A stretch of DNA of 64,000 nucleotides. Origin: Ruegeria lacuscaerulensis (GTDB lineage Bacteria > Pseudomonadota > Alphaproteobacteria > Rhodobacterales > Rhodobacteraceae). The DNA is taken from NCBI RefSeq assembly GCF_013034685.1, contig NZ_WQGO01000007.1, forward strand, positions 1 through 64,000, read 5' to 3'. Numbering within the stretch: position 1 is the first letter of the stretch; each line of letters starts with the position of its first letter. The position numbers and the translations under genes are program-made. A model generated the notes under the pieces. It worked only from the letters and a program-made list of their open reading frames with translations. It was not told the DNA's origin and did not search any database. Shown piece by piece: positions 14,892 to 21,398 of the stretch.

Positions 14892-16646
14892 GTGAATGCA
14901 AGACCCTATTTCATGCAAAGGGTTTGGGTTGTTTTGGGATTTATCTTGTCTGTCGCGCTGTTGGCGGCAGGGGTGTGGTCATACGGCTACCGGCAGGCGC
15001 TGCTGCAACTTAGTGACAAGGCCGAGGCTGATCTGGAACTCGCTGCCGACCGGCTGAGCACTCAGATGCAGGTCTATCAGGAACTTGCCGTACTGATGGC
15101 CACACATCCTGCTTTCGACACGCTGGAGACCGAAGCCCAACGGCGCGATGCGCGCTTCGTGCTGTTGGATGTGGCCGACAAGACAGCGGCGGTCGATATG
15201 ATCTATCTGGACCGTGACGGTCAGGTTCTGGCCTCGGCGCAACCGGCGGCGCAGACCAATATGGCCGATCACCCTGCCTTTGAGCGTGCCTTGCAGGGCG
15301 CGATGGGCAGTGCGCATGGGGTGTTAGACGCGACCGGGGACCGGATCTATTCTTACGCCGCCCCCGCGTTTGGCCCCGAAGGGCAGGTGGACGGGGCATT
15401 GATGGTCATCGCCGACGTGCAGGATGTCGAGCAGACATGGCGCGGCAGTACCGAGGCTGTTTTCTTTGTCGATGCCGAGGGGGTCGTGTTCATCTCCAAT
15501 CGTTCGGACCTGTTGTTCTGGCGCCGTGACGACGGCCAGCTGGGGCTAACTCCGCCAACCGGTGAGTCCGTGGCCTTCGCCTCGGTCCAAGTGGGACAGC
15601 ATGAGTTGTGGGAGGTCGATTGGGGTCGGTATTTACCGCAACGTGCCTTGCATCTGACGCTGGATCTGCCAGTGATCGACATGACGGCCGAAGTGCTGGT
15701 CGATGTTGCTCCGGCCCTGCGCTTGGCCGGGTTGCAGGCGGCGACGGTGGCGGCAATCTGTCTGGCCTTTGGGGCCTTGTTGTATCTGGCCACCGAGCGC
15801 AGGCGTACTTTGGCCTTGGCCAATGTCGAGTTGGAAAGCCGCGTGGCGCAACGCACCCATGAACTGACGGATGCCAACACCGCCCTGCGCCGCGAAGTGC
15901 ATGAGCGACAGGAGGCGGAAACCGCCCTGAAACATGCGCAGGAGGAATTGGTGCAGGCTGGAAAACTCAGCGCCTTGGGACAGATGTCTGCTGGGATCAG
16001 TCACGAGTTGAACCAGCCACTCATGGCGATCCGGCAATTCGCCGACAATGGAGCGGCGTTTCTGACCCGCGGGCGCGAGCAAAAGGCTGCCGAAAACCTG
16101 ACCCGCATTTCCGACATGGCCGCACGTATGGCCCGGATCATCAAGAACCTGCGGGCCTTTGCACGCAATGAAAGCGAGCCGATGGGCAAGGTTGATCTGG
16201 TGCAGGTTATCGAAACCGCGATCGAACTGACCGAGGCGCGGTTGCGCGCGGATGGGATCGTTCTGGACTGGACCCCTCCGACGCGGCCTGTGTTTGCTTG
16301 GGGCGGTGAGGTGCGTCTGGGGCAGGTTTTCGTCAACCTGATCAACAACGCCGCCGACGCCATGAGCCAGCAACCCGAGCGGCGGATCGACATTGAAATA
16401 CATGATGACGAGAAGCTGTCGGTGACAGTCCGCGATATCGGTCCGGGGATTGAGAATACGGAAAAACTGTTCGAGCCGTTTTATACGACCAAAGAGGTCG
16501 GCTCCTCAGAGGGGATGGGGCTGGGTCTTTCGATCTCGTACGGGCTGGTGCAAAGCTTTGGCGGCAATATTCGCGGTGTAAACTCGAATCCAGGGGCGAC
16601 CTTTACGGTTGAACTGGAGTATTTTCGGGAAGATGAAGTGGTATGA
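14892..16646 (+). CDS. dctB: C4-dicarboxylate sensor histidine kinase
   Basis: Membrane sensor of the DctBD two-component system. First membrane helix about residues 8-28, a periplasmic PAS-like (double Cache) sensor of about 230 residues, second helix about 277-297, coiled linker, then the kinase core with the phosphorylated His371 in SHELNQPLMAIRQ and the ATP-binding N, G1 and G2 boxes (NLINNAADA, VRDIGPGIE, GLGLSISYG). GTG start at 14892; an ATG at 14913 is the alternative. Overlaps dctD by 4 bases and precedes dctPQM, fixing the C4-dicarboxylate assignment by context. Confidence 0.92.
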   Translation: MNARPYFMQRVWVVLGFILSVALLAAGVWSYGYRQALLQLSDKAEADLELAADRLSTQMQVYQELAVLMATHPAFDTLETEAQRRDARFVLLDVADKTAAVDMIYLDRDGQVLASAQPAAQTNMADHPAFERALQGAMGSAHGVLDATGDRIYSYAAPAFGPEGQVDGALMVIADVQDVEQTWRGSTEAVFFVDAEGVVFISNRSDLLFWRRDDGQLGLTPPTGESVAFASVQVGQHELWEVDWGRYLPQRALHLTLDLPVIDMTAEVLVDVAPALRLAGLQAATVAAICLAFGALLYLATERRRTLALANVELESRVAQRTHELTDANTALRREVHERQEAETALKHAQEELVQAGKLSALGQMSAGISHELNQPLMAIRQFADNGAAFLTRGREQKAAENLTRISDMAARMARIIKNLRAFARNESEPMGKVDLVQVIETAIELTEARLRADGIVLDWTPPTRPVFAWGGEVRLGQVFVNLINNAADAMSQQPERRIDIEIHDDEKLSVTVRDIGPGIENTEKLFEPFYTTKEVGSSEGMGLGLSISYGLVQSFGGNIRGVNSNPGATFTVELEYFREDEVV

Positions 16647-17872
16647 CACGCAAGGTTCTTCTGGTCGATGATGACGCGGCGGTCCGCGAGGCATTGGCGC
16701 AAACGCTGGAACTGGCGGACTACGCGCCGGTCACGGCAGGCTCTTTTGTAGCAGCCAAGGATCATATTCGCGCAGACTTTGCGGGGGTCATCGTCTCGGA
16801 TATCCGCATGCCCGGACGGGATGGGTTTTACCTTTTGAACTACGCGTTGGAGATTGATCCCGAGCTGCCGGTGATCCTGCTGACAGGCGAAGGCGATATT
16901 CCAATGGCCGTTCGGGCGATGGGCAAGGGTGCGTTCGATTTTCTGGAAAAGCCCTGTGCGGCCTCTGATCTGCTTGAGGTGCTGGAACGAGCACATCTGG
17001 CGCGGCGGCAAGTGCTGGAGCAGCGCGCTCTGAAACAAGAATTGGAAAAGGGCGACCCGGCGGCGCGGCTTCTGTTTGGCCTGTCTGCGCGGTCGGAGGC
17101 GTTGCGAGACAGGGTGCGTTCAGTTGCGCCGACTGGGGCCGAGGTTCTGGTGACAGGACCTGCGGGCAGTGGGATATCAAAGGTTGCTGAGGTGGTTCAT
17201 TTGATGTCACCGCAATCGCAGGGCCCATTCGTCAAGCGGCCCGCTTCGGGCATGTCGGTTCAGTCTTTGCAGCAGGTGTGTGAGGACGCGGCTGGTGGGT
17301 CACTGTTCCTTGACGAGGTTTCGGTGATGCCGAAAGACACCCAATATGCGGCGCTTGAAATCATCGAGAAGGGGGTTGGGGCACGGATCATCGCCGGCAC
17401 CACCGCGGATCTGGCGGATCTGTCCGCAACAGGGCAGTTTCATGCGGACCTGTTCTATCGGTTGGATGTGATGCGCGTGCGCATCCCATCCCTGTCCGAG
17501 CGGCCCGAGGATATACCGGTGATCTTTCGCCACTATGTCGCGCAGGCTGCGGAACAGGCGGGCATTGCGGTGCCTGACATCTCTTCCGAACATTTGGCGG
17601 CTTTGATGTCGCAGGATTGGCCAGGGAATGCCCGATCCTTGATGTCAGCAGCCATGCGCTTTGTGCTTGGGATGCCGGATGAGGTGGGCGCCGCCACTGA
17701 GTTGGGTCTGAGCGAGCAGATGGCCCAAGTTGAGCGGTCACTTTTGATCGCGGCGCTGGGGCGCCATAACGGCAAAGCATCGGACGCGGCCAAGGCGCTG
17801 AAACTGCCGCGCAAGACATTTTACGACAAGCTGGCTCGCTATGGCATTCGGCCCGAGGATTATCGCAGGTAG
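16643..17872 (+). CDS. dctD: DctD-type response regulator with degenerate AAA+ domain
   Basis: 409 residues: receiver domain (about 1-120, phospho-acceptor Asp53 in VSDIRMPG), AAA+-like domain (about 145-340), Fis-type HTH (about 365-405). The Walker A site reads GPAGSGIS at 172-179, with Ile178 where the family has lysine. The stretch between beta-strand 2 and Walker B is shortened and the sigma-54 contact loop GAFTGA is absent, while Walker B (GGSLFLDEV) remains. It is therefore unlikely to be a sigma-54 ATPase activator, and may work with the housekeeping sigma factor as reported for Rhodobacter capsulatus NtrC. Two palindromes lie just downstream, before dctP. Confidence 0.9.
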   Translation: MTRKVLLVDDDAAVREALAQTLELADYAPVTAGSFVAAKDHIRADFAGVIVSDIRMPGRDGFYLLNYALEIDPELPVILLTGEGDIPMAVRAMGKGAFDFLEKPCAASDLLEVLERAHLARRQVLEQRALKQELEKGDPAARLLFGLSARSEALRDRVRSVAPTGAEVLVTGPAGSGISKVAEVVHLMSPQSQGPFVKRPASGMSVQSLQQVCEDAAGGSLFLDEVSVMPKDTQYAALEIIEKGVGARIIAGTTADLADLSATGQFHADLFYRLDVMRVRIPSLSERPEDIPVIFRHYVAQAAEQAGIAVPDISSEHLAALMSQDWPGNARSLMSAAMRFVLGMPDEVGAATELGLSEQMAQVERSLLIAALGRHNGKASDAAKALKLPRKTFYDKLARYGIRPEDYRR

Positions 17873-18231
17873 GTGCTCCCGCCCGCTTTCTCTGCATTTC
17901 TTGCAGGTCAGGCGGTTGGGCCGGGCAGTTCGCTGACGCGAACTGTGGTTGCGCTTGATTGGGTGGTGATTCTCGATGGGCGAATCAAGTTGTGCGGAAA
18001 ACCGCACAGAAGGGGTTTGGGCTTGTGCGAAATTTCGCACGTCGCTCAAGGATAGCAGCCAAAGATCTGTTCGCGCGGCTTGTAATGCACTGTTAGTTAA
18101 CAAAAAAATACAATCACCCGGCATTCAGAACAAAAAGTTGAGCGGTAAGAGGCGATTCGGTTCACTGCCCGGCATGAGGCGCTCGTCGAGCGTCTGGGAG
18201 AAGTTTTGTGAAGTCTGGGAGGATAGGACAG
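17873..18231. other. 359-base dctD-dctP intergenic region
   Basis: No gene seen. It holds the two operator-like palindromes at 17991-18040, an AT-rich patch at 18091-18114 with a possible -10 TACAAT (18109-18114) lacking a good -35, and the dctP ribosome site GGGAGG at 18217-18222. I found no TGGCAC-N5-TTGC sigma-54 promoter in it. Confidence 0.7.
17991..18040. promoter_or_regulatory. Tandem DctD-type operator palindromes
   Basis: Site 1: TGTGCGG-AAAA-CCGCACA at 17991-18008. Site 2: perfect palindrome GTGCGAAATTTCGCAC at 18025-18040. Both share the GTGCG/CGCAC half-sites, with centres 33 bases apart, about three helical turns, so both would face the same side of the DNA. They resemble the tandem DctD sites before rhizobial dctA. 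Confidence 0.82.
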
Positions 18232-19233
18232 ATGAAATTCCTGACAACAGCCGCAACCGCACTGGCGCTGACCGTGACCGCGACCGCTGGGATGGCGGCG
18301 TGTGACGACGGCGAGATCGTGGTGAAGTTCGCGCATGTGACCAACACCGACAAGCACCCCAAGGGGATTGCTGCATCGTTGCTGGAGCAGCGTGTCAATG
18401 ACGAGATGAACGGCGTTATGTGCATGGAGGTGTTCCCGAACTCGACCCTCTATAATGACGACAAGGTGCTGGAGGCGATGCTGCAGGGTGACGTCCAACT
18501 GGCCGCGCCGTCGCTGTCGAAGTTTGAAAAGTTCACCAAGCAGTTCCGTCTGTTCGACCTGCCGTTCATGTTCAAGAACATTGATGCGGTGGACGCATTC
18601 CAAGCCTCGGCTGACGGTCAAGCGATGAAGGACAGCATGCAGCGCCGTGGCCTGCAGGGGCTGGCATTTTGGCACAACGGCATGAAGCAAATGTCGGCGA
18701 ACAAACCTTTGGTTGATCCTTCCGATGCGGATGGTCTGAAGTTCCGTGTTCAGTCTTCGGACGTGCTGGTCGCGCAGATGGAAGCCATTGGTGGCAGCCC
18801 GCAGAAAATGGCGTTCTCGGAAGTCTATGGCGCGTTGCAGCAGGGCGTTGTGGACGGGCAGGAGAACACCTGGTCGAACATCTACGGCAAGAAGTTCTTC
18901 GAAGTTCAGGACGGTATTACCGAGACCAACCACGGCATCATCGACTACTTGGTTGTGACTTCGGTTGACTGGCTGGACAGCTTGGACCCCGAAGTGCGCG
19001 ATCAGTTCCTGACGATCCTGAGTGAAGTCACCGAGACGCGGAACAAAGAAGCCTTTGCGGTGAACGAAGCGGCCAAGCAGTCGGTGATCGACGCCGGCGG
19101 CACCATTCGTGAGCTGAACGCCGACCAGCGTCAGGCTTGGGTCGATGCGATGAAGCCTGTCTGGGACAAGTTCGCTGGCGATGTGGGTCAGGACAAGATC
19201 GACGCTGCACAGGCGATCAACGCCGGATTTTAA
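18232..19233 (+). CDS. dctP: TRAP transporter substrate-binding protein (DctP family)
   Basis: Periplasmic receptor of the tripartite C4-dicarboxylate uptake system. 333 residues with a Sec signal peptide (cleavage after about residue 22, MAA-CDDGE), then the DctP fold; LKFRVQSSDVLVAQMEAIGG holds the arginine that binds the substrate carboxylate. ATG at 18232 follows GGGAGG by 9 bases. Controlled, by position, by DctBD. Likely substrates are succinate, fumarate and malate; DctP relatives bind other organic acids. Confidence 0.93.
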   Translation: MKFLTTAATALALTVTATAGMAACDDGEIVVKFAHVTNTDKHPKGIAASLLEQRVNDEMNGVMCMEVFPNSTLYNDDKVLEAMLQGDVQLAAPSLSKFEKFTKQFRLFDLPFMFKNIDAVDAFQASADGQAMKDSMQRRGLQGLAFWHNGMKQMSANKPLVDPSDADGLKFRVQSSDVLVAQMEAIGGSPQKMAFSEVYGALQQGVVDGQENTWSNIYGKKFFEVQDGITETNHGIIDYLVVTSVDWLDSLDPEVRDQFLTILSEVTETRNKEAFAVNEAAKQSVIDAGGTIRELNADQRQAWVDAMKPVWDKFAGDVGQDKIDAAQAINAGF

Positions 19234-19344: not shown

Positions 19345-20022
19345 ATGTCTGGTGCGAAACCCGGCTCTGGCGGGCTGATCGACCATATCGAAGAGACGAT
19401 GATCGCGCTGTTGTTGGGGGTGATGACCGTCGTCACCTTCGCCAACGTCATCGCGCGGTTCGTCTTTAATTCTAACATCCTGTGGGCGCTGGAACTGACA
19501 GTGTTCACCTTTGGCTGGTTGGTGCTGTTGGGGGCGTCCTATGCAGTGAAGAAACACGCGCATCTGGGCGTGGATGCGATCCTGAACATGCTGGCCCCGG
19601 CGCCGCGACGCATCCTGGCGCTGATTGCGGTGGCGTGCTGTCTGGTCTTCTCGTTGCTGCTGCTGAAGGGGTCCTATGACTATTGGGCCGTCTTCGCGGA
19701 TCTGCCGCCGACCTCAGGCCGGTGGTTCCCGACCGGTTTCGATACCGGTGCGCGCAGCCAGAGCTTTTACGAGGTTGACGACATCCCAATGGTCGCGCCG
19801 CTGCGGTTTTTGGAAGACATGATCAACTATGGCGAGGGCTATGAAAAGCTGCCCAAGGTGATCCCGTATCTGGTGTTGCCGGTGTCGATGATCCTGCTGG
19901 TGATCCGCTTTTCTCAGGTTGCAGTACAAATCTGGCGCGGCGAAACCGACCGCCTTGTCGCCAGCCACGAAGTCGAGGACGAGATCGAAGAAGTCCGCGC
20001 ACAACAAGGGGTGCATGACTGA
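19345..20022 (+). CDS. dctQ: TRAP transporter small membrane subunit
   Basis: 225 residues with four predicted membrane helices (about 15-37, 48-68, 85-107, 163-188), the DctQ pattern. The loop between helices 3 and 4 (about 50 residues, with a YWAVFADLPP stretch) is longer than in minimal DctQ proteins. The stop overlaps the dctM start in TGATG, so the two membrane subunits are coupled. Lies 111 bases after dctP. Confidence 0.92.
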   Translation: MSGAKPGSGGLIDHIEETMIALLLGVMTVVTFANVIARFVFNSNILWALELTVFTFGWLVLLGASYAVKKHAHLGVDAILNMLAPAPRRILALIAVACCLVFSLLLLKGSYDYWAVFADLPPTSGRWFPTGFDTGARSQSFYEVDDIPMVAPLRFLEDMINYGEGYEKLPKVIPYLVLPVSMILLVIRFSQVAVQIWRGETDRLVASHEVEDEIEEVRAQQGVHD

Positions 20023-21398
20023 TGGACGTCGTTCTTCTTTTCTCAATGGTCATTGGCCTGCTGTTGATCGGTGTTCCGATTGCGGTGGCGCTTGGCCTTA
20101 GCTCGACCCTGTTCCTGCTGATCTATTCTGACAGTTCTTTGGCCTCGGTCGCAGGCACGCTGTTCGAGGCATTCGAGGGGCATTTCACCCTGCTAGCAAT
20201 CCCGTTCTTCATTCTGGCGTCGTCTTTCATGACGACGGGCGGTGTGGCGCGTCGGATCATTCGGTTCTCGATTGCTTGCGTCGGCCACCTGCCGGGCGGT
20301 CTGGCGATTGCGGGCGTGTTTGCCTGTATGCTGTTTGCCGCTTTGTCGGGATCATCTCCTGCGACCGTTGTGGCCATCGGTTCCATCGTGATCGCAGGGA
20401 TGCGTCAGGTGGGGTATTCCAAGGAATTCGCCGCCGGTGTGATCTGTAACGCCGGTACGCTTGGCATCCTGATCCCGCCCTCTATCGTGATGGTGGTCTA
20501 TGCTGCCGCCGTTGAGGTCTCGGTCGGGCGCATGTTCCTGGCCGGCGTTATTCCGGGCCTGATGGCAGGTCTGATGCTGATGATCACCATCTATGTCATG
20601 GCCAAGGTCAAGAACCTGCCCAAAGGTGAGTGGAAAGGATGGGGCGAGATCTTTGCCTCGGCGCGCGAGGCCGGATGGGGGCTGTTCCTGATCGTCATCA
20701 TTCTGGGTGGTATTTATGGCGGTATCTTCACCCCAACCGAAGCTGCGGCCGTGGCCGCCGTCTATGCCTTCCTGATTGCCAGCTTTGTCTATAAGGACAT
20801 GGGCCCGCTCAGCACGGAAGAAGGGCAACCCAATCTGCCACTGATCAAAAAGCCCTATGCGCTGGTGACGGCCTTTTTCCACCCCGATACCAAGCATACG
20901 CTGTTCGAGGCAGGCAAGCTGACCGTCACGCTGCTGTTCGTGATCGCCAACGCGCTGATCCTGAAACATGTGCTGACCGACGAGCAGGTGCCGCAACACA
21001 TCGCCAGTGCCATGCTGTCGGCGGGTCTGGGACCTGTGACCTTCTTGATCGTGGTGAACGTGATCCTGCTGATCGGCGGTCAGTTCATGGAGCCCTCGGG
21101 CTTGCTGGTCATCGTCGCGCCGTTGGTGTTCCCGATTGCGATTGAACTGGGCATCGACCCGATCCATCTGGGCATCATCATGGTGGTCAACATGGAGATT
21201 GGGATGATTACACCTCCGGTCGGGCTGAACCTGTTCGTGACCTCGGGCGTGGCCGGAATGCCGATGATGAGCGTCGTGAAGGCGGCGCTGCCCTTCCTGG
21301 CGGTTCTGTTCGTCTTCCTGATCATGGTCACGTATATCCCATGGATATCAACCTTCTTGCCCAACACTTTCATGGGGCCAGAGATCATAACGAACTAG
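20022..21398 (+). CDS. dctM: TRAP transporter large membrane subunit
   Basis: 458 residues, about 12 hydrophobic segments, ion-coupled permease of the TRAP system. Contains the family segments GSSPATVVAIGSI, GTLGILIPPSIVMV and, near the end, EIGMITPPVGLNLFV. A hydrophilic insert at about 255-295 separates the two halves. Terminates the dctPQM operon ahead of a strong hairpin. Confidence 0.94.
   Translation: MDVVLLFSMVIGLLLIGVPIAVALGLSSTLFLLIYSDSSLASVAGTLFEAFEGHFTLLAIPFFILASSFMTTGGVARRIIRFSIACVGHLPGGLAIAGVFACMLFAALSGSSPATVVAIGSIVIAGMRQVGYSKEFAAGVICNAGTLGILIPPSIVMVVYAAAVEVSVGRMFLAGVIPGLMAGLMLMITIYVMAKVKNLPKGEWKGWGEIFASAREAGWGLFLIVIILGGIYGGIFTPTEAAAVAAVYAFLIASFVYKDMGPLSTEEGQPNLPLIKKPYALVTAFFHPDTKHTLFEAGKLTVTLLFVIANALILKHVLTDEQVPQHIASAMLSAGLGPVTFLIVVNVILLIGGQFMEPSGLLVIVAPLVFPIAIELGIDPIHLGIIMVVNMEIGMITPPVGLNLFVTSGVAGMPMMSVVKAALPFLAVLFVFLIMVTYIPWISTFLPNTFMGPEIITN

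Follow-up and report, generated by a model that had tools for sequence, protein, structure and literature searches.

A DctD-type regulator of Rhodobacteraceae lacking the Walker A lysine and the GAFTGA loop: probable sigma-54-independent control of dctPQM

A 64,000-nucleotide stretch of the Ruegeria lacuscaerulensis genome (C31:1-64000 of a 4.6 Mb genome, 99.84% complete; hereafter the window) carries a dctB-dctD-dctP-dctQ-dctM cluster whose response regulator, DctD, lacks both the Walker A lysine and the GAFTGA loop. We propose, with a probability of about 0.72, that this DctD is an ancient, phosphorylation-controlled, sigma-54-independent activator of dctPQM, which from remote sites would act on the housekeeping polymerase with the help of integration host factor (IHF) and would probably hydrolyse no ATP. 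The parts of this proposal differ in firmness. Sigma-54-independent control of dctPQM is well supported by the sequences, activation via the housekeeping polymerase from remote sites appears the best reading of the upstream region, and ATP independence of DctD is likely. Because signal input and DNA target sites are both kept, DctD probably turns on dicarboxylate uptake through ordinary RNA polymerase.

A DctD protein without sigma-54 contact loops

16643..17872, + strand: dctD, 409-amino-acid response regulator with a degenerate AAA+ domain (from the open reading frame, domains, alignments and orthologs)

The predicted protein consists of a receiver, a degenerate Sigma54_activat domain, an AAA lid and a Fis-type helix-turn-helix (HTH). 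A preliminary description, made from the DNA letters alone, had reported an isoleucine in place of the Walker A lysine and the loss of GAFTGA, with receiver Asp53, Walker B and the Fis HTH kept, and all of this holds. The Walker A stretch (residues 172-180) reads G-P-A-G-S-G-I-S-K, with Ile at the lysine position, 178. GAFTGA is not present, and alignment to solved NtrC-type proteins leaves a gap in its place; the L1 loop is thus deleted, as in sigma-70-dependent NtrC-family activators. The same alignment opens a further gap, of about 12 residues, ahead of sensor I; this gap, which the preliminary description did not mention, falls at the place of the second sigma-54-facing loop. The sensor-I Asn position is Thr. 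Retained are Asp53, Thr81 and Lys103 of the receiver, the Walker B residues L223-D224-E225, the lid motif WPGN-x-R and the HTH. Set beside the sigma-54-dependent bacterial enhancer-binding proteins (bEBPs; group I, DctD), the window protein has the receiver, the AAA+ domain and the Fis-type HTH, and lacks GAFTGA and the Walker A lysine; its genome has no rpoN match and its target no -24/-12 element.

An AlphaFold model of DctD has a mean pLDDT (predicted local distance difference test) of 88.1, with blocks of 88-97 over residues 141-300, and a pTM (predicted template modelling score) of 0.60, so that the folds of the domains are sure and their arrangement is not. Superimposed on FlrC (VIA-align), the modelled AAA+ domain gives Z 25.2 and a root mean square deviation of 1.7 over 209 residues (the FlrC chain has 245); in the model the AAA+ fold is kept.

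A homolog of DctD was found in every one of 198 family genomes, representing 197 genera (about one genome per genus). The top match was fetched from 109 of them, together with a second copy from one, giving 110 loci; the remaining 89 genomes had weaker matches. At a threshold of at least 430 bits against the window DctD, 83 of the 110 loci are full-length orthologs, and in all 83 both the Walker A lysine and GAFTGA are gone. The 27 weaker loci comprise one with GAFTGA, 15 with a variant loop (GAFPGA, GAFAGA etc.) and 11 with the loop deleted, one of which (L181) is a short-form gene cut by the end of a contig. The 15 variant-loop regulators (L182, L185, L187, L189-L193 and L195-L201) occur in 8 genomes with and 7 without an rpoN match; L185 has a twin GTGCG site with copies 32 bp apart.

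Adding 80 named loci to the 83 orthologs gives 163 short-form loci, a number that is not an independent species count since some organisms are in both sets (L014 and L057, for example, have the same residues and operators). Position 178 is Ile in 119, Thr in 21, Val in 17, Leu in 2, Asn in 2, Met in 1 and Ser in 1, and the canonical lysine occurs in none. Elsewhere the protein is strongly conserved: Asp53 in 162 loci (one gap), Thr81 in 160 (Ser in 2, one gap), Lys103 in 163, and the recognition-helix residues P389, R390, K391, T392, D395 and K396 in 163.

In a quick tree without bootstrap, 82 short-form rows form one clade (Shimodaira-Hasegawa approximate likelihood ratio test, 99); the tree was built from 107 loci, the 110 less three whose reading frames were short or interrupted, and from three rhizobial or Azospirillum DctD proteins. 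As judged from these sequences, loss of the lysine and of GAFTGA is ancestral to the clade and fixed, not strain-specific. One weaker locus, L176 (genome G057), encodes a DctD 51% identical to the window protein with the Walker A lysine kept and the loop deleted, in a genome with no rpoN match; it is a possible intermediate.

A pseudogene or sequencing error was rejected, as the change is found in 163/163 loci and dN/dS is low. For ten pairs of loci dN/dS was 0.010-0.057 in the receiver, 0.017-0.075 in the AAA+ domain and 0-0.045 in the HTH, values that are rough, the AAA+ dS exceeding 1 in 8 of the 10 pairs; the pair L103/L104 was left out for infinite or senseless values, its stretches probably beginning at different residues. 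Decay, with the AAA+ domain a non-functional remnant and DctD heading to a pseudogene, would agree with the loss of several catalytic and contact residues and with an internal stop codon in 1 of the 163 loci (L031), but the low AAA+ dN/dS, new invariant residues, the confident domain fold and the conserved gene order make it highly improbable.

A stronger competitor concerns the nucleotide. A shifted P-loop, Gly-x-x-Gly-x-Gly-[Ile/Val/Thr]-[Ser/Pro]-Lys180, might still allow the AAA+ domain to bind ATP, binding and not hydrolysis being what matters, much as for R. capsulatus NtrC. The glycines are kept; of the 163 loci, 162 have Lys180, two residues past the lost lysine, and all have Glu183, and Walker B retains its Asp in 157 and its Glu in 148. 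On the other side, the canonical Lys is found in 0/163, the sensor-I Asn is mostly Thr and the first Arg of canonical FRxDL, a residue to which a role is ascribed, is mostly replaced. We regard the shifted P-loop as possible, if somewhat doubtful; apart from the nucleotide it is compatible with our proposal.

Operators and promoter upstream of dctP

The 359-bp gap between dctD and dctP contains the following elements.

17992..18007, no strand: operator 1, GTGCGGAAAACCGCAC, conserved in orthologs and also found before S. meliloti dctA
18025..18040, no strand: operator 2, GTGCGAAATTTCGCAC, 33 bp from operator 1 (start to start), conserved in orthologs
18083..18095, + strand: IHF-like site TAATGCACTGTTA, 7/9 against YAANNNNTTGATW, followed by an A/T-rich tract (by eye)
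18138..18143, + strand: TTGAGC, candidate -35, conserved in orthologs about 97-100 positions after operator 2
18161..18166, + strand: TTCACT, candidate -10, 17 bp after the -35, conserved in orthologs

The two GTGCG/CGCAC palindromes that had been described 33 bases apart before dctP are the only exact matches to GTGCG-N6-CGCAC in the window; 100 shuffles of it had a mean of 0.20, and at least two copies occurred in 3 of the 100, spacing ignored. With up to 2 mismatches allowed the window has 34 matches, fewer than its shuffles (66.5). In the whole 4.6 Mb genome exact GTGCGRDWWHYCGCAC is found only at operators 1 and 2 (a reversed control pattern gives one per strand), and the regulon may therefore be this operon alone. 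Orthologous loci were scanned up to 700 bp after dctD: exact palindromes occur twice in 100 of the 163 loci, once in 39 and not at all in 24. A pair with at least 7/10 per site is present in 151 (77 at 32 bp, 69 at 33 and 5 at 34), where 20 shuffles of the same stretches give a mean of 12 pairs and a maximum of 20; in the set of one locus per genome the count is 77 of 83. Conservation thus marks the sites, and DctD is their putative ligand. By sequence and arrangement they are inherited DctD enhancer sites, common to rhizobial dctA.

No sigma-54 promoter had been seen before dctP, and our search agrees: TGGCAC-N5-TTGCW has no match within 2 mismatches in 17873-18231. Among the orthologs, one of the 83 being too short to count, -24/-12-like sites (at least 9/11) occur in 1 of 17 in genomes with an rpoN match (shuffle mean 1.3) and in 3 of 65 without (5.1). 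As a positive control, the pattern is met 11/11 before dctA of S. meliloti and R. gallicum and 10/11 in Azospirillum. With none in the window gap and no ortholog excess over shuffles, such a promoter was rejected.

The statistics for the candidate promoter and the IHF-like site refer to 132 loci with a good operator pair. TTGAGC-N17-TTCACT is matched at 10/12 or better in 68 of them, as compared with a mean of 0.23 and a maximum of 2 in 100 local shuffles; 81 loci reach at least 9/12, and in 72 of these the element lies 98-101 positions after operator 2 with 17-bp spacing. Transcription of dctP is predicted to start near 18173, which would place the operators near -140 and -173. Sigma-70 -10 elements typically have A at -11; by that consensus TTCACT appears a poor sigma-70 -10, as expected for an activated promoter. 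The motif is not a widespread one, a candidate explanation that we rejected: GATTCG[CG]TTCACT is found exactly once in the genome, at dctP, and with one mismatch six more times (the reversed control has three). A GANTC sequence (GATTC) lies in the spacer of the candidate promoter, at 18154-18158; its letters are the commonest in orthologs (52-74%), and it may be a methylation or GcrA-type signal.

Matches to the IHF consensus, YAA-N4-TTGATW, peak at offset 44 after operator 2. At offsets 40-47, 28 of the 132 loci score at least 8/9 (500 local shuffles: mean 1.6, maximum 7), and the genome encodes ihfA and ihfB. For the A/T-rich block a CtrA site (consensus TTAA-N7-TTAA) was set aside by eye, TTGA being commoner than TTAA in the second half. 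In R. leguminosarum, though not in S. meliloti, IHF is reported to stimulate dctA where it depends on DctD (PMC9827912).

The same arrangement bears on whether DctD represses instead, acting as a repressor, or with a dual role, at a dctP promoter that is constitutive or is activated in some other way, with phosphorylation relieving or tuning its effect. Repression is possible without GAFTGA, as TyrR (PMC3162934) and Caulobacter NtrC (PMC10274813) illustrate. The operators, however, lie about 100 bp upstream of the -35 and not over the promoter, and in sequence and spacing they match sites beside sigma-54-type dctA promoters of rhizobia. Lower fitness in some co-cultures was seen for R. pomeroyi mutants in dctM (SPO2626), dctQ (SPO2627) and a C4-dicarboxylate TRAP (tripartite ATP-independent periplasmic) regulator (SPO2630), and likewise for those in dctD-2 (SPOA0237) and its TRAP genes (PMC10041152). 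Either block might be the ortholog; since mutations in the regulator and in the transporter alike lower fitness, these results fit a positive role, and we consider repression unlikely.

Sigma-54 and related regulators in the genome

Neither the DNA-binding domain of RpoN (PF04552) nor its activator-interacting domain (PF00309) has a match in the genome of the window. PF04552 scored above its cut-off in 61 of the 198 family genomes; the rpoN tally is 60/198, leaving out G075 (a 41-position match of 23 bits). Of 54 genomes of the genus, 6 exceed the cut-off, 5 by a strong match. When ten genomes with a PF04552 match and ten without were compared for PF00309, it turned up in 8 of the former and 0 of the latter. 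An rpoN match is present in 17 of the 83 short-form genomes and absent from 66; two of those 17 are interrupted or incomplete (a stop inside a partial match in G031, a match in two pieces in G027), so that working rpoN genes may number fewer than 17.

A strict coupling of rpoN loss to loop loss was rejected, as 17 of the 83 loop-less orthologs are in genomes with an rpoN match. Loop loss is therefore not simply an aftermath of rpoN loss and, being ancestral to the clade, the exchange need not have followed the loss of sigma-54. The preliminary description had suggested a rewiring of dicarboxylate uptake away from sigma-54. This is strongly supported by the lack of an rpoN match, of GAFTGA in any bEBP-type protein of the genome and of a -24/-12 element before dctP, and by the presence of a conserved sigma-70-like one; the change is clade-wide, so not a recent one. 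Sigma-54 might yet be supplied in trans from a missed or plasmid-borne rpoN, with DctD a variant sigma-54 activator. The strong rpoN matches in 5 of the 54 genus genomes and those accompanying 17 of the 83 orthologs speak for it, but in those same 17 the lysine and GAFTGA are gone and -24/-12-like sites do not exceed shuffles (1/17 against 1.3), and we give this explanation very little credence.

Six bEBP-type proteins were identified in the genome of the window: DctD, NtrX, NtrC (scoring under its NCBIfam cut-off), RtcR, a PEP_hydrolase-like fusion and a DctD-like paralog; other matches were judged by eye to be Clp-type or other AAA proteins. GAFTGA is missing from all six, the Walker A lysine from the window DctD only. 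Outside the window, RtcR (L003, G000:C29:280081-280581; 671 bits against an NCBIfam cut-off of 650) has an intact Walker A and no GAFTGA, and by eye its neighbour looks like Ro60. RtcR proteins are counted among sigma-54 activators; this one, in a genome without an rpoN match, may be rewired too. Also outside the window, a second such response regulator (L004, G000:C31:80031-80489) follows a sensor kinase and has Walker A intact and GAFTGA deleted, and the fusion (L002, G000:C12:285563-286060) joins a PEP_hydrolase-like domain to a sigma-54-type AAA+ domain and Fis HTH without GAFTGA.

The dct locus, a proposed mechanism and known systems

The genes that flank dctD are all on the same strand.

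14892..16646, + strand: dctB, sensor histidine kinase with Cache-like input, HisKA and HATPase domains (open reading frame and Pfam; its dCache_1 score falls under the Pfam cut-off)
18232..19233, + strand: dctP, TRAP solute-binding protein (Pfam DctP, TIGR00787)
19345..20022, + strand: dctQ, TRAP small permease (by position and a YiaM match under its cut-off)
20022..21398, + strand: dctM, TRAP large permease (TIGR00786)

The ATG at 18232 is most likely the dctP start; the listed open reading frame begins at GTG 18208. The closest named relatives of the window DctD are from Ruegeria, the top one being 90% identical. The full gene order is found in 79 of the 80 named loci, the exception, L114, lacking only a dctB match; dctQ is downstream in 80/80 and dctB upstream of dctD in 79/80. 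Features of a DctBD system that are present include the dctB neighbour, a dicarboxylate-type transporter as target, the GTGCG twin sites and the PRKTFYDKL helix. The best reading of the locus would be a dctBD-dctPQM system for C4-dicarboxylate uptake, controlled without sigma-54, the putative substrate being assigned by transporter type.

In the mechanism that we propose, DctB would phosphorylate Asp53 of DctD, as the intact residues suggest, and phosphorylated DctD would then bind the two palindromes, which lie roughly 140 and 173 bp before the transcription start predicted for dctP. A bend at the IHF-like site at about -84, a motif that stands out statistically and that IHF presumably binds, would bring DctD to the promoter. 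The target would be the conserved element TTGAGC-N17-TTCACT, apparently of housekeeping type, at which DctD may recruit or stabilise RNA polymerase by contact. Because the Walker A Lys, the sensor-I Asn and both loops are lost while purifying selection persists, the AAA+ domain would no longer remodel sigma-54, would probably not hydrolyse ATP, and may serve as a conserved module for oligomerisation or contact.

A number of observations weigh against this mechanism. The near-invariance of Lys180 might mean a deviant nucleotide site. No exact palindrome is found in 24 of the 163 loci, and no operator pair in 12 of them within the 700 bp searched. The IHF-like site of the window reaches only 7/9. 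The promoter consensus was read from the counted loci themselves, which include many close relatives (Ruegeria); in the one-per-genome set at least 9/12 is reached in 30 of 63 loci (8 of 12 in genomes with an rpoN match and 22 of the 51 others). Finally, TTCACT is without an A at -11, so that another sigma factor or a second regulator is possible.

A broader claim seems to us evenly balanced: that throughout the clade DctD is a pseudo-ATPase whose sigma-54-style enhancer layout, with its twin remote sites and IHF bend, was kept while promoter, sigma contacts and ATPase were exchanged, the phosphorylated protein activating the housekeeping polymerase at a distance through looping and contact, without ATP hydrolysis. 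The clade would offer a clean natural example for tracing one regulator, together with its operator, from sigma-54 to sigma-54-independent control, the output module alone having changed while the DNA sites and recognition helix stayed constant. It would also allow a test of whether enhancer sites combined with IHF can act on ordinary polymerase without ATP. The label sigma-54-dependent appears wrong for these DctD proteins in many members of the Rhodobacteraceae, a point of importance for models of how dicarboxylates are taken up in the ocean. Our search of the open-access literature found no paper on a sigma-54-independent DctD, which is weak evidence.

The nearest known system is the rhizobial one (S. 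meliloti, R. gallicum), in which DctD is a sigma-54 activator of dctA. It has in common with the window the dctB-dctD order, the receiver and TGTGCGGAAATCCGCACA-type twin sites 33 bp apart, and S. meliloti DctD has the same PRKTFYDKL recognition helix, nearly invariant in the clade. On S. meliloti pSymB, dctB and a divergent dctA flank TGTGCGGATTTCCGCACA and a degenerate copy (8/10) 33 bp further on; the arrangement recurs in R. gallicum, with a pair at 33 bp, and in Azospirillum, with one at 34 bp. (The dctA genes were identified by Pfam and similarity in stretches without gene annotation.) Alignment with rhizobial DctD, which had been proposed as a check, separates the two: the proteins of S. 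meliloti, R. gallicum and Azospirillum carry GxxGxGK and GAFTGA, whereas the window DctD has neither. In rhizobia and Azospirillum a TGGCAC-type site (TGGCAC-N5-TTGCW) lies between the operator pair and the divergent dctA, whereas in the window the target is dctPQM. The shared helix and sites indicate that DNA recognition was held and the output changed.

R. capsulatus HupR acts with a remote site plus IHF upstream of hupSL. This NtrC-family regulator is sigma-70-dependent, and its operator and target differ from those of the window DctD; with TyrR, DhaR and VpsR it belongs to the bEBP-type proteins without GAFTGA (PMC3162934). According to the same source, R. pomeroyi has a single sigma-54 activator, a protein with a variant loop. 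Rhodobacterales NtrC proteins lack L1, and that of R. capsulatus is reported to act with sigma-70; it had been invoked as a precedent for ATP independence, a part to which it is ill suited, as it is reported to need ATP binding, and Caulobacter NtrC reportedly needs its Walker motifs (PMC10274813). In the window DctD, by comparison, the Walker A lysine is gone. V. cholerae VpsR, without GAFTGA, works at sigma-70 promoters and reportedly needs no ATP (PMC10274813); its fold is similar to the DctD model at 20-22% identity, and it binds c-di-GMP (cyclic diguanylate) according to a PDB title. This kind of regulator is known in the same bacterial order, and what is new here is the combination of a lost Walker A lysine with conserved enhancer sites and an IHF-like bend.

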